A DNA stretch of 40,106 bases, from contig JACMPC010000108.1 in assembly GCA_014377705.1 (NCBI GenBank), positions 1 through 40,106 on the forward strand. Reading direction: 5' to 3'. The stretch is from Dermatophilaceae bacterium. GTDB lineage: Bacteria > Actinomycetota > Actinomycetes > Actinomycetales > Dermatophilaceae. Within the stretch, counting starts at the first letter, position 1. Each line of letters opens with the position of its first letter. This document shows, piece by piece, positions 22,341 to 26,508 of this stretch. Position numbers and translations under genes: made by a program. The notes beneath the pieces are model-generated. The model saw only the letters and a program-made list of their open reading frames with translations. It was not told where the DNA came from and did not search any database.

Positions 22341-22420
22341 CTGCCAAACACATGTAGCCAAACGTCCCCGCCCAGCCCCAGAACCGAGACGTCTGCCACC
22401 ACATGTAGCCAAACGTCCCC
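22341..22420. repeat. Direct repeat pair in the convergent gap
   Basis: CACATGTAGCCAAACGTCCCC occurs at 22349-22369 and again at 22400-22420 (21 bases, exact), each preceded by CTGCCA, 51 bases apart. The pair fills the gap between the 3' ends of sppA and the ParA gene. No stem of terminator type is formed by one unit. Confidence 0.85.
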
Positions 22421-22426
22421 TTGGGC

Positions 22427-23164
22427 TCAGGAGGGCCTGACTTCGGCCCACAGCTGCTCGTAGCACAGGGCGGCCCGACTGGCCGGTGCGAAGGCGGACA
22501 CCGGCGCCCGGCGCTCGGCCATCTGCTCGATGATCGCGAGCGAGGGGATCACGGTGTCGGCGATACGGGTGCCGTCCCGCGGGATCGTGTCGATCACGTC
22601 CCGGTGCAGGCGTTTGCGCCGATCGGCCATGGAGAAGAAGGCCACGATCTCGGGTCTGCTGCCCTCGGAGTCGGCCACGAACCGGGTCAGCTGGTCCAGG
22701 GTCCGCAGCGACAGGGTTGCCGGGATCAGAGGCACCAGAAGCGTGTCCGAGGCGTGCAACACGTTCTCGGACACCAGCGAGACACTCGGCGGGCAGTCCA
22801 GGAAGACCGTGTCGTAGTCGTCGGCGACGCTGCTCAGCAGCTTGCCCAGCCGACGCGTCCGCTTCTTCGTGTCGTCGAGATCGAGGTCCATGTTGCGATA
22901 GCTGAAGTCGGCAGGCAGCAGGTCCAGATTGTCGAAGTCCGTTGCCTTCAGCGCCGCATCCAGCGGCCAGCTGCGGGTCACCAGGGCGTGGCTGCCACCT
23001 TTGACCCGGGGCCGCACCCGGAACAGGTACGTCGCCGCGGCCTGGGGGTCAAGGTCCCACAGCAGGGTACGACGGCCCTCACGTGCCGAGAGATAGGCGA
23101 GGTTCACTGCTGTCGAGGTCTTCCCGACCCCACCCTTGATGTTGTACGTCGCCAGGACCTTCAC
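22427..23164 (-). CDS. ParA/MinD-family ATPase coupled to a CHAD protein
   Basis: 245 residues. Deviant Walker A at residues 10-16 (KGGVGKT, signature Lys10 and catalytic Lys15), Walker A-prime W-D-L-D-P-Q near 36-41, Walker B in V-F-L-D-C-P-P-S near 120. The C-terminal part has the basic stretch A-D-R-R-K-R-L-H-R that in ParA proteins helps bind DNA non-specifically. No ParB and no parS-like site is near. GTG 23164 overlaps the stop of the CYTH-CHAD gene (GTGA), so the two are made together. ParA ATPases move plasmids, chromosomes or protein cargos by gradients on the nucleoid. Given the partner, polyphosphate granules are a possible cargo (inference). The gene ends just after the repeat pair. 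Confidence 0.9.
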   Translation of the reverse strand: MKVLATYNIKGGVGKTSTAVNLAYLSAREGRRTLLWDLDPQAAATYLFRVRPRVKGGSHALVTRSWPLDAALKATDFDNLDLLPADFSYRNMDLDLDDTKKRTRRLGKLLSSVADDYDTVFLDCPPSVSLVSENVLHASDTLLVPLIPATLSLRTLDQLTRFVADSEGSRPEIVAFFSMADRRKRLHRDVIDTIPRDGTRIADTVIPSLAIIEQMAERRAPVSAFAPASRAALCYEQLWAEVRPS

Positions 23165-24681
23165 GTCACGCCTCCCAGTCGGTGCATCAGATGGAGGCTT
23201 GACGGCCGCTCGAGACGCGCGAACGCGACGTCGAACTCCCGGCGGGCCCGATCCTGCTCAAGGTCGAGGTGGCCGATCAGCTCGCCCATGGCCAGCACGG
23301 CTGCCGCCGGAGTCCCGTCGACCATCATCTCCTCGGCGAACCCGCGCAGCGCCTGCCGTTGCACTTCCGAGTCCTGGAACCGTCCCAGGACGTCCTGCAG
23401 GTCCTTGAGGTCGCCGATGACGCGCTTGCCGGCGGCGGCGTCGATCACCGGGGCGAACACCTCCAGGGCGTAACGCAGCTCCTTGCAACGCTTCCGCAGC
23501 GCGTGCAGGTCGCCGGCTGGCGAGTCGGCCCCGATGGCAGCCCCGCCGCGAGCCACACGCCGGTGTGCCCGCGAGATGCAGCGGCTCCCCAGCTGCCCCG
23601 CCGACAGGGGCTCCTGCTGCTCAACCCCGGGAGTCTGGTGATGTGGAGTGCTCGCGAGCAGGGACAGCTCCTCGCCCCACTCGATGACCAGCCGCCGATA
23701 CCTGGTGGACCTCAGAGCGCGCACCAGCGTCCGGCGTTCCGCGGTCCGCCGGATTCGCAGATGGGTGGCGAAGGCGTCCAGGTCGGCCGCGTCCGCCGAC
23801 ACCAGCCAGCCCTCCAGGCGGGGCAGGTCAAGCTCGTAGACGTCGAGGTCACGAACTGGCGTCGTCAGGTCACCAAGCCACTTGAAGGCAGGCTCCCACC
23901 GGCTTCGCATCACCTGCGGCAGGGCGGGCCGGCCCAGCTTGAGCACCGATCGGGTGCGTCGTACCGCCACCCTGAAGTCGTGCAGGAACTCGGTATCCAC
24001 GTCGTTGAGCAGCCCCGGAAGATTCTCGCCCATCGCCTCGAGGAAGCCGCCCAGAACCGTTGTCAGCAAAACGGTTGAGGGGTCGTCGCCATGAAGCTTC
24101 GGCCGCGGGCGGGCAGGCGGGGCAGCGCGCGCGAGCGGGAGCAGCCCAGCGCCGGTCAGCAGGGCAGCTGCCCGGCGGGCGGAGGCGTCGTAACCGCGCA
24201 AGGGGTACAGGGTGACCTCGGTCGGTACAGCGGAGGCCGGCGAGGCCGGTGCGTCGAGCTCGACCCGGGCCACGGTCTTGCCGTCCTGGTTCTGCAGGGC
24301 CAGGGACTGTATGCGCCGTCTCTCGTCCGAAACCACCATCAGCGCCCGGATGCCGGTCACCGGCGCGATGGCGTCGCGGACCGGACCGGGCGGCAGGGCG
24401 CTCGCGAGCGCCGGCCAGCGCAGGTCCTCTGCGGTCACCGTCACGGTCGGCGAACCGTCCGCACGGGAGAGCACGAGCCGCTCGCCGGTGGCCACGTTCC
24501 GGTGCTCCAGGGCCAGGCCGTCGCAGCCCAGCCGGCGGTCGAAGGTGTCGAGCCGCCTGCGTCGCACCCGTCGACTCGCCCCGGCCACCACGACGTACCG
24601 GCCGGAGAGAGCATGCACCATTGACTCGAGCCGCAGCGACTCCCCCTGGGGTGGCTGGAGGGCGCGGATCGCACTGGTCAT
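23161..24681 (-). CDS. CYTH-CHAD domain protein, probable polyphosphate binder
   Basis: 506 residues. The N-terminal about 190 residues resemble a CYTH (triphosphate tunnel) domain (F-D-R-R-L-G-C-D-G-L-A-L-E-H-R, then L-V-L-S-R), but the usual E-x-E-x-K start is not seen, so catalytic activity is doubtful. From about 215 a CHAD domain follows: F-L-H-D-F-R-V-A-V-R-R-T-R-S-V-L-K near 240 and L-H-A-L-R-K-R-C-K-E-L-R-Y-A-L-E-V-F near 415, the two conserved His/Arg/Lys helices that bind polyphosphate. CHAD proteins locate to polyphosphate granules in Ralstonia. The stop overlaps the ParA start. It is divergent from the SulP gene. Confidence 0.88.
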   Translation of the reverse strand: MTSAIRALQPPQGESLRLESMVHALSGRYVVVAGASRRVRRRRLDTFDRRLGCDGLALEHRNVATGERLVLSRADGSPTVTVTAEDLRWPALASALPPGPVRDAIAPVTGIRALMVVSDERRRIQSLALQNQDGKTVARVELDAPASPASAVPTEVTLYPLRGYDASARRAAALLTGAGLLPLARAAPPARPRPKLHGDDPSTVLLTTVLGGFLEAMGENLPGLLNDVDTEFLHDFRVAVRRTRSVLKLGRPALPQVMRSRWEPAFKWLGDLTTPVRDLDVYELDLPRLEGWLVSADAADLDAFATHLRIRRTAERRTLVRALRSTRYRRLVIEWGEELSLLASTPHHQTPGVEQQEPLSAGQLGSRCISRAHRRVARGGAAIGADSPAGDLHALRKRCKELRYALEVFAPVIDAAAGKRVIGDLKDLQDVLGRFQDSEVQRQALRGFAEEMMVDGTPAAAVLAMGELIGHLDLEQDRARREFDVAFARLERPSSLHLMHRLGGVT

Positions 24682-24804: not shown

Positions 24805-26508
24805 ATGAGCGCGGGGCAGGAGGTCGCGGGCACACCGTCCAGGTTCGCACGGCATGTGCCTGGGCTCACCCTGCTGCGCCACTATCAGCGGTCCTGGATC
24901 CAGCCAGACCTCGCCGCCGGGCTCATCCTGGCCGCGATCCTCGTGCCCCAGGGCATGGCCTACGCCGAGCTGGCCGGGCTGCCGGCGGTCACCGGGCTCT
25001 ACACCACCGTCGCCTGCCTGGTCGGCTACGCGATCATGGGGCCGTCGCGCACTCTCGTGCTGGGCCCGGACTCGGCCGTCTCGCCACTGATCCTCGCGGC
25101 AACCCTGCCGCTGCTGGGAGCATCCGGAGACCCGGCCACCGCGATCGCCCTCGCCGGGATGCTCGCGCTGCTGGTCGGCGCGATCGAGATCGGCCTCGGG
25201 GTGGCGAAGCTGGGCTTCGTGGCGGATCTGCTGTCCAAGGAGGTCCAGGTCGGCTACCTGAACGGCCTCGGCATCACGATCATCGTCAGCCAGCTCCCGA
25301 AGCTGTGCGGGTTCTCCACCGACGCCGAAGGGTTCTTCGCCCAGACCGGGGCCTTCGTGTCCGACCTCGACACAGCGAACGGGATCACTTTGGCACTCGG
25401 GGCGACCACCCTGCTGGTCCTGCAGGTGCTCCCGCGCATGTCGCAGAAGCTGCCGGCCATCCTCGTCGCCATCGTCGGGGCGACCGTGGTCTCAGCCGTG
25501 TTCGACCTGACCGCGCAGGGCGTCAGCAGGGTGGGCGCGCTTCCCCAGGGGCTGCCGAGACCGGTCCTGCCGTGGACCCAGCTGAGCGACCTGGGGCCGC
25601 TGCTGATCGCCGCGGTCGGCATCACCATCGTGTCCCTGACCGACACCATCGCGACGTCGACCAGCTTCGCCGCACGCCTGGGCGAGGAGGTTGACCCCGA
25701 CCAGGAGATGATAGGGGTGGGCACCGCGAACCTCGCCGCAGGCCTGTTCCAGGGCTTCGCGGTGTCGTCCAGCGCGTCGCGTACCGCCGTGGCCGAGCAG
25801 TCGAAGTCCAAGAGCCAGCTGACCAGCCTGGTGGGGGCCGCCGTCGTCGTCCTGCTCCTGCTGTTCTTCAGCTCGCTGCTGGCGGACCTGCCGCAGACCG
25901 TGCTCGCGGCCGTCATCATGGCGGCTGCCCTGTCGCTGATCGACGTCCCCGTCCTGCGCCACTACTGGCAGGTGCGCCGATCCGCGCTGGTGCTCTCGGT
26001 CGTCGCGTCATTGGCGGTGATCGTCCTGGGCGTGATCAATGGGATCGTCGTCGCGATCAGCCTGTCCATCCTGCTCTTCTTCCGGCGCCAGTGGTGGCCG
26101 CACGGCGAGGTGCTCGGCAGGACGCCGTCCGGCGTCTGGCATGCCCTCCATGACCGGGAAGAGGCCCGGGAAGTGCCTGGAGTCGTGGTATTCCGGTGGG
26201 AGGCGCCGCTGTCCTTCGCCAACGTCGGGATCTTCCGGCAGCAGATGAGGTCCTTGGCCCGCAGGGACGGCGTCGAGTGGATCGTGCTGCAGTGCGAGGC
26301 GGTCACCGACATCGACGTCACGGCCGCCGACATGCTCGAACAGCTCACCGCCGAGCTCAGATCCCGGGGGGTGCACCTGGTGCTCGCGGAGATGCGCACC
26401 AGGCTCAGCGAGCAGATGCGCCGCTACGGCCTTCTGAGGACAGTGGACAAGGACCATCTGTACACGTCGATCGAGGCCGCCGTCACAGCCATTCAGGGCT
26501 CACGCTGA
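24805..26508 (+). CDS. SulP-family anion transporter with STAS domain
   Basis: 567 residues: a membrane domain of 12-14 helices (about 30-425), then a STAS domain (about 445-560). Family marks: A-A-I-L-V-P-Q-G-M-A-Y-A-E-L-A-G-L-P near 45, G-P-D-S-A-V-S-P near 87 and F-A-V-S-S-S-A-S-R-T-A near 315. SulP proteins carry sulfate, bicarbonate or other anions; the substrate cannot be fixed by sequence. Sulfate would suit the assimilation operon about 6 kb downstream, but the distance is large. ATG 24805 has only a weak ribosome site. Confidence 0.9.
   Translation: MSAGQEVAGTPSRFARHVPGLTLLRHYQRSWIQPDLAAGLILAAILVPQGMAYAELAGLPAVTGLYTTVACLVGYAIMGPSRTLVLGPDSAVSPLILAATLPLLGASGDPATAIALAGMLALLVGAIEIGLGVAKLGFVADLLSKEVQVGYLNGLGITIIVSQLPKLCGFSTDAEGFFAQTGAFVSDLDTANGITLALGATTLLVLQVLPRMSQKLPAILVAIVGATVVSAVFDLTAQGVSRVGALPQGLPRPVLPWTQLSDLGPLLIAAVGITIVSLTDTIATSTSFAARLGEEVDPDQEMIGVGTANLAAGLFQGFAVSSSASRTAVAEQSKSKSQLTSLVGAAVVVLLLLFFSSLLADLPQTVLAAVIMAAALSLIDVPVLRHYWQVRRSALVLSVVASLAVIVLGVINGIVVAISLSILLFFRRQWWPHGEVLGRTPSGVWHALHDREEAREVPGVVVFRWEAPLSFANVGIFRQQMRSLARRDGVEWIVLQCEAVTDIDVTAADMLEQLTAELRSRGVHLVLAEMRTRLSEQMRRYGLLRTVDKDHLYTSIEAAVTAIQGSR

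Follow-up and report, generated by a model that had tools for sequence, protein, structure and literature searches.

Among the closest described counterparts of the system considered here is McdAB, in which a ParA-fold ATPase is likewise encoded next to a probable cargo-bound protein, no ParB takes part and the cargo is not DNA. We analyzed a stretch of 40,106 nucleotides (the window) from a Dermatophilaceae bacterium (GenBank assembly GCA_014377705.1, contig JACMPC010000108.1, positions 1 to 40,106), in which a parA-type ATPase gene with a GTG start (245 aa, 22427..23164) follows the gene of a CYTH-like-CHAD protein with an ATG start (506 aa, 23161..24681), both on the minus strand. It is reasonable to suggest, with a probability of roughly 0.6, that this pair is a system of the ParA type by which polyphosphate granules are positioned, the CHAD protein acting as adaptor, and a functional link between ParA and CHAD is strongly supported. 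In contrast to McdAB, the window's adaptor would be a CYTH-CHAD protein, which has no basic peptide at its N-terminus, and the proposed cargo is polyphosphate; the window ParA also keeps the signature lysine, which Synechococcus elongatus McdA is without (PMC6328274). Cells overproducing McdA reportedly had unusually many granules, possibly polyphosphate bodies in the authors' view (PMC6328274). Chromosomal ParABS (Soj-Spo0J) provides the best structural matches of the window ParA, whereas the window ParA falls into a separate clade in our tree, shares 28-35 % identity with the other ParA matches of the window's family and has no ParB encoded beside it.

Granule spacing by AlgP in Pseudomonas aeruginosa shares the proposed cargo and the use of the nucleoid (PMC9239181; review PMC13052382), but AlgP, a DNA-binding protein of the histone H1-like kind, has been described as a tether and, unlike ParA, is no ATPase. 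A 2025 review credits AlgP with polyphosphate granule spacing and, in its available part, names no ParA (PMC13052382). The CHAD phosins, represented by the complex of Chlorobium tepidum CHAD (CtCHAD, UniProt Q8KE09) with polyphosphate (6qva), have the CHAD type and most of the measured contact residues in common with the window protein, and a ParA partner is not mentioned in the available text on CtCHAD (PMC6537752). YgiF of Escherichia coli has the same CYTH-CHAD domain order (5a60) and is an active tripolyphosphatase (PMC6537752), whereas the ParA-linked type lacks the ExExK motif. In Acidithiobacillus, a folD-ppk-parA-CHAD cluster places parA beside a CYTH-CHAD gene together with ppk (PMC10892726; PMC6416229), which was reported in 2024 as gene context only, with the ParA linked to plasmid partition (PMC10892726). 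The sequence-only reading of the window had known of no described system of this design; this holds in that no ParA system for polyphosphate granules was found by title or start of abstract in the open literature, most subscription papers and preprints being outside this scope, but not for the adjacency of parA, CHAD and ppk, which the Acidithiobacillus report had already published. The proposed adaptor would be new, and the cargo is probably new as well.

The CHAD stop and the GTG start of parA overlap by 4 bp within a GTGA (23161..23164, minus strand), as the sequence-only reading had stated, and the arrangement recurs far beyond the window's genus. In a clade scan that took one genome per species, used the ParA alignment as query and kept the best 80 loci, 57 loci had, on the strand of parA, a CHAD gene that ended no more than 49 bp upstream of it; 19 loci were without such a gene and four lay at contig edges. 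This adjacency spans five phyla: with one duplicate removed and contig-edge loci scored as misses, it was found in 26/29 loci of Actinomycetota, 26/44 of Pseudomonadota, 2/2 of Dormiibacterota, 1/1 of Myxococcota and 1/2 of Acidobacteriota, and in 0/1 of Thermodesulfobacteriota. When the window and 18 further loci were added, CHAD lay directly upstream in 69/99 (a total that includes one locus twice, as L059 and L078), and the two genes overlapped in 53 of these 69, mostly by exactly 4 bp. In Methylotuvimicrobium buryatense 5G (locus L103), a cultured and non-pathogenic carrier of the pair, 39 bp separate the two genes. None of 29 other ParA-like loci, which served as controls and include two weak ParA-like matches (L006 and L007), had CHAD within about 1.5 kb on either side. 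The neighborhood of this ParA is strongly non-random, and the random one named beforehand as a refutation of the proposed system did not appear. Among the 99 genomes of the window's family, six carry this ParA at an identity of at least 45 %; four belong to the window's genus (its own genome included) and are all CHAD-adjacent, and two have no adjacent CHAD. As in McdAB-like systems, the ATPase gene is thus stably linked to that of a cargo-binding protein. The CHAD profile used for further searches comprised 55 rows, i.e., the window and 54 loci, with L109 (ambiguous bases), L078 (on the contig of L059) and the 18 further loci excluded; L078 was also left out of the tree, the distance test and the joint comparison.

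The partners also tend to occur together where their genes are apart. In a search of the linked-type CHAD profile against the whole genomes of the 19 non-adjacent and four contig-edge loci, the same CHAD type was found elsewhere in the genome for 14 of the 19 (E 1.7e-161 to 7.6e-199), and one further genome held a linked-type fragment at a contig edge; the type was not found by this whole-genome search in the other four (L098, L113, L134 and L150). At the Nitrotoga-like loci L113 and L134, a CHAD gene of another kind (a CYTH-CHAD by Pfam in L113) and a SixA-like gene lie upstream of ParA, at distances of about 1 and 3 kb. For the contig-edge loci, the linked type was present in the genomes of L130 and L143. 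Among 394 genomes of the window's class, 14 carried this ParA (E up to 1e-40), 13 the linked-type CHAD (E up to 1e-80) and nine both (Fisher 2.4e-12, relatedness ignored). Any kind of CHAD was present in 255 of the 394, and since CHAD in general is common in the class, it is the CHAD type that counts. In the class of Methylobacter tundripaludum (genome G492), which we take to be Gammaproteobacteria, 303 genomes yielded 48 with ParA (E up to 1e-60), 38 with CHAD, 30 with both and 28 with the two adjacent (Fisher 9e-22, relatedness again ignored), and CHAD was present in 27 of the 28 genomes in which ParA matched most strongly, with G586 as the exception. Four of the 18 ParA-only genomes of this class have a different CHAD directly upstream of ParA, and in three of them, all with distant ParA relatives (L295, L302 and L305), this CHAD is without a CYTH match; therefore CHAD, and not CYTH, is the constant partner.

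In the phylogenetic tree, built by a quick method, 98 clade rows were split from 10 other ParA with a Shimodaira–Hasegawa-like approximate likelihood ratio test (SH-aLRT) support of 100, so that the window ParA stands apart from the other ParA rows of the tree, which it might have joined if it were a chromosomal ParA with its own ParB. All CHAD-adjacent rows fell inside a 92-row subclade (support 96), and the adjacency label required 11 changes on the tree as against 32.7 in shuffles. Six basal ParA rows are without CHAD. In two of them, L067 and L068, ParA lies directly before a PhoU_div (DUF47) gene, and a PHO4 phosphate permease gene comes next (assigned by Pfam in L067, by likeness in L068); these two loci are a second phosphate link of the wider ParA clade.

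The ParA of the window, MKVLATYNIKGGVGKTS, carries Lys10 and Lys15 in its open reading frame translation, and its deviant Walker A motif KGGVGKT (residues 10-16; 23117..23137, minus strand) is as intact as the sequence-only reading had described it. Pfam matched the protein to AAA_31 (E 1.6e-36) and CbiA, and no NCBIfam model reached its cut-off for either ParA or the CHAD protein, the best ParA score being 88.7 against 180. An AlphaFold model from an alignment of 40 sequences had a mean predicted local distance difference test score (pLDDT) of 86.7 and found its closest PDB matches in ParA/Soj (Z 30-32) and McdA (Z 28.8). The ATPase residues K10, K15, D37, D39 and D123 are invariant in all 40 aligned relatives, and R183, kept in 38 of the 40, aligns with an Arg of a solved ParA, presumably the DNA-binding Arg of Soj. 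A deviant Walker A with both signature and catalytic lysines, together with the ParA fold, places the protein in the ParA/MinD family, and the ParB beside parA that would mark a ParABS system is missing: the sole ParB_N match found in the window's genome lies on contig C66, beside a different ParA, in keeping with the earlier remark that no ParB was nearby. A plasmid partition role was rejected because of this ParB position and the separate clade of the ParA. MinD-like membrane attachment is not favored either, because the model ends with the last core helix and no helix or added tail follows it.

The partner protein matched the Pfam CHAD model (residues 210-446, E 3.7e-52) and no Pfam CYTH model. 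Its AlphaFold model (mean pLDDT 92.9, alignment of 55 sequences) assigns residues 1-189 (24115..24681, minus strand) to the CYTH/triphosphate tunnel fold, with Z scores of 10.2-12.8 against known structures, so that the CYTH-CHAD label of the sequence-only reading stands for CHAD at the level of Pfam and for CYTH at the level of fold. Residues 193-506 (23164..24105, minus strand) gave 6qva as best match (Z 32.7, root-mean-square deviation 2.2, 308 residues aligned). The suspected loss of the catalytic ExExK motif of triphosphate tunnel enzymes was confirmed for the window protein and extends to its relatives, the motif occurring in 0/67 ParA-linked CHADs and in about 26/29 other CHADs of the window's class. 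Residue 139 is likewise Glu in 28 of the 29 other CHADs and Arg in 60 of 66 linked ones. Here, the set of 67 linked CHADs was obtained from the 69 pairs by removing L038 (broken frame) and L106 (cut by the contig end); the comparison set is a non-random one, made of the 30 best-scoring class matches from which L172 (linked type at a contig end) was removed; and the count of about 26 combines 25 proteins that fit the strict motif pattern with L159 (EIERK). Judged from these residues, the ParA-linked CHADs form a distinct type, and a predicted inactive CYTH domain is a trait of the whole type.

The residues expected to hold polyphosphate are largely retained in this type. Polyphosphate contacts in CtCHAD and an archaeal counterpart were tested by others, including CtCHAD His253, Arg256, Arg260, Arg296 and Lys441 (PMC6537752). 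These align with window H234, R237, R241, R277 and K426, kept in 67, 66, 67, 67 and 64 of the 67 linked CHADs, respectively; the first three lie in the segment H234-R244 (23950..23982, minus strand). A CHAD fold with the core contact residues makes the protein a probable phosin. CtCHAD itself carries 19 of the 22 CHAD-domain residues diagnostic of the linked type, and its best BLAST score was 172 bits against linked CHADs and 59 bits against the others, with medians of 116 (78 matches) and 38 (48 matches) in which some proteins are counted several times. CtCHAD is of the linked type, so that measurements of polyphosphate binding exist for a CHAD of this very type. For the location of CHAD proteins on polyphosphate granules in vivo, citing papers refer to Tumlirsch and Jendrossek (2017). 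The role of cargo adaptor proposed in the sequence-only reading is the best-supported reading of the CHAD protein, because most of the contact residues are kept and the type is that of a CHAD crystallized with polyphosphate; the other half of that role, a contact with ParA, is presumed from the pairing. In a species of the window's genus (locus L038, 681-2194), the CHAD frame is broken and ParA is intact, which is either an assembly error or decay.

If the pair works in this way, the CHAD domain would bind polyphosphate and seat the CHAD protein on the granule, with the CYTH domain, deprived of its catalytic motif, as a structural or contact domain. ParA would bind ATP, dimerize and coat the nucleoid without sequence specificity. 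The granule-borne CHAD protein may then contact ParA, stimulate its ATPase and release it locally, so that granules could ride on the resulting ParA gradients, stay apart and be shared between daughter cells, similar to carboxysomes with McdA. For partners of ParA/MinD ATPases, a positively charged, disordered N-terminus has been shown or suggested as the contact (PMC10241942), and the sequence-only reading had asked for a Lys/Arg-rich ParA-contact segment on the CHAD protein. None was found in the N-terminus, linker or loop: the linker and loop of the linked CHADs had a median net charge of -1 and no Lys/Arg-rich segment, and the basic disordered N-terminal peptide by which McdAB-like partners reach their ATPase has no equivalent. 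If it is bound by ParA, the CHAD protein probably uses a folded surface, which would be unusual for the family.

Several observations weigh against the granule-positioning reading. As to the ParA contact, the N-tail of the linked CHADs is variable, with a median net charge of -1 (+3 or more in 9 %) and no basic peptide, and the C-tail (median +3 vs +2 in other CHADs) is not specific. As to polyphosphate, CtCHAD Arg385 and Arg438 correspond to Ser370 and Gly423 in the window and are not kept, and both matter for long polyphosphate chains in CtCHAD (PMC6537752). As to co-occurrence, the linked-type CHAD is missing in 5/14 ParA genomes of the window's class, and at the thresholds used ParA is missing in 4/13 of its linked-CHAD genomes; in one of these four (G104) the contig ends at the CHAD gene, and in the other three no ParA lies within the flanks seen; in two of these three, the CHAD half of the profile alone was matched. 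In the class of G492, 14/48 ParA genomes (G586 among them) have neither the linked type by profile nor a CHAD beside ParA, and 8/38 CHAD genomes are without ParA at the thresholds used, one of these eight (G792) having a shortened ParA stretch downstream of CHAD. Two contig-edge loci add to this, with a weak CHAD match only in the genome of L097 and none in that of L102. In the Methylobacter relatives L110, L115, L139 and L144, ParA lies directly before a glycogen phosphorylase gene (assigned by Pfam for L110 and by sequence likeness for the other three), and CHAD stands elsewhere in the genome. Moreover, the Fisher values do not account for relatedness, and the genome searches scored no more than the first few candidates of each genome.

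The alternative that survives best is that ParA is an ATP-dependent regulatory switch, acting through the CHAD protein on polyphosphate synthesis, polyphosphate breakdown or phosphate uptake, comparable with BcsQ or FleN, and it draws on the genes around the pair. No constant third gene was found among the immediate neighbors scanned (48 upstream and 49 downstream, from 50 and 51 found, two of each being excluded from the scan), which fell into 64 families upstream (the commonest in four) and 55 downstream (the commonest in three). Polyphosphate and phosphate-transport enzymes nevertheless recur, with PPK1 and PPK2 at least once each and H+-PPase and His_Phos_1 (SixA-like) at least twice each upstream, and PPK2 at least twice and Ppx at least once downstream. 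In the ParA-only genomes of the class of G492, where 20 of 35 neighbors of ParA were scanned with Pfam, one distant ParA (L299) has PPK1 immediately upstream, and two genomes have a SixA-like gene next to ParA (L296 by Pfam, L305 by likeness); the remaining neighbors include phosphofructokinase, a calcineurin-like phosphoesterase and many without a phosphate link. Lone CHADs similarly stand near a SixA-like gene (L193 and L203 by Pfam; L194, L196 and L198 by sequence likeness only), near a PstS-like gene (L189 by a binding-protein model match, others by likeness) and near Ppx (L203). The regulators BcsQ, FleN and FlhG are also among the structural matches of the ParA model, and the basal loci L067 and L068 beside PhoU_div genes, the former also beside the PHO4 permease, would fit a switch on phosphate metabolism. 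On the other hand, the constant partner is a binding protein and neither a synthase nor a transporter, the adjoining enzymes vary from genome to genome, and ParA/Soj and McdA are closer in fold than BcsQ or FleN, so that we consider such a switch unlikely.

Still less probable, in our opinion, is that the pair tethers polyphosphate to the chromosome, so that polyphosphate would act on DNA (in compaction, silencing or cell-cycle exit) while the spacing of granules would be a mere by-product, as might be conceived from AlgP. In Pseudomonas aeruginosa, where AlgP is the presumed tether, polyphosphate granules arise within the nucleoid region and influence how the chromosome functions (PMC9239181), but a pure tether needs no ATPase, and the ATPase residues are kept in all 40 ParA relatives. 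There is very little to be said for a cargo other than polyphosphate granules, such as another phosphate-rich body, a membrane-bound acidocalcisome or a phosphate transporter: the CYTH domain could recognize another ligand, and the basal relatives are linked to phosphate transport and some Methylobacter relatives to glycogen phosphorylase, yet the recurring partner is CHAD, which comes without CYTH in three distant cases, and nucleic acids are not bound by CHAD domains, whereas polyphosphate is (PMC6537752). A neighborhood without function, be it a travelling cassette or the remnant of a plasmid-type partition ParA that came by chance to lie beside CHAD, could draw on the patchy distribution (ParA in 14/394 class genomes) and on the published link of the Acidithiobacillus ParA to plasmid partition (PMC10892726), but is hardly credible in view of flanks that change while the pair stays, partners that co-occur unlinked, translationally overlapping genes, no ParB beside ParA and ParA and CHAD distances that correlate (r 0.82, 66 pairs), the last not being used as proof because common descent gives the same correlation.

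Around the pair, the window's genome contains a PPK1 gene, and the one CHAD gene found in it is the window's own. A SulP sulfate permease gene with a STAS domain (24805-26508) is divergent from the CHAD gene. Directly downstream of parA, the 20-mer ACATGTAGCCAAACGTCCCC occurs twice (22350-22369 and 22401-22420); it was rejected as a parA centromere, being a dispersed genomic repeat that is not specific to the locus, with eight further genomic sites at up to two mismatches and a paired arrangement, spaced by about 51 bp, both here and at two more loci, and no search for parS was made. A second ParA, a C-terminal fragment at the start of another contig of the same assembly (L043, 1-138 on C81 of genome G000), shares 80 % identity over 46 residues; either a paralogue or DNA of a related strain would account for it.

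What was directly observed is the gene pair, conserved across several phyla, the unlinked co-occurrence of the partners, the conserved ATPase motif and the conserved polyphosphate-contact residues. One branch of ParA may tentatively be regarded as devoted to phosphate stores, moving granules along the nucleoid by way of interchangeable phosphate-linked adaptors and a folded contact surface instead of a basic N-terminal peptide, although this wider view is less likely to hold than granule positioning by the pair itself. The adaptors would then be the inactive CYTH-CHAD protein, CHAD alone and, in the basal relatives, a PhoU-like protein next to a phosphate permease, and in several phyla polyphosphate granules would count among the cargos of ParA, alongside chromosomes, carboxysomes, flagella and chemotaxis arrays. 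The orphan label is given to many ParA/MinD ATPases for want of a known partner (PMC10241942); for this one, it is now possible to name a partner and a likely cargo, a sequence signature for its diagnosis and the carrier genomes, which include a cultured methanotroph. If granule positioning by ParA and the CHAD protein is true, a storage granule would be added to the cargos of ParA gradients, with a partner that lacks the usual basic N-terminal peptide.

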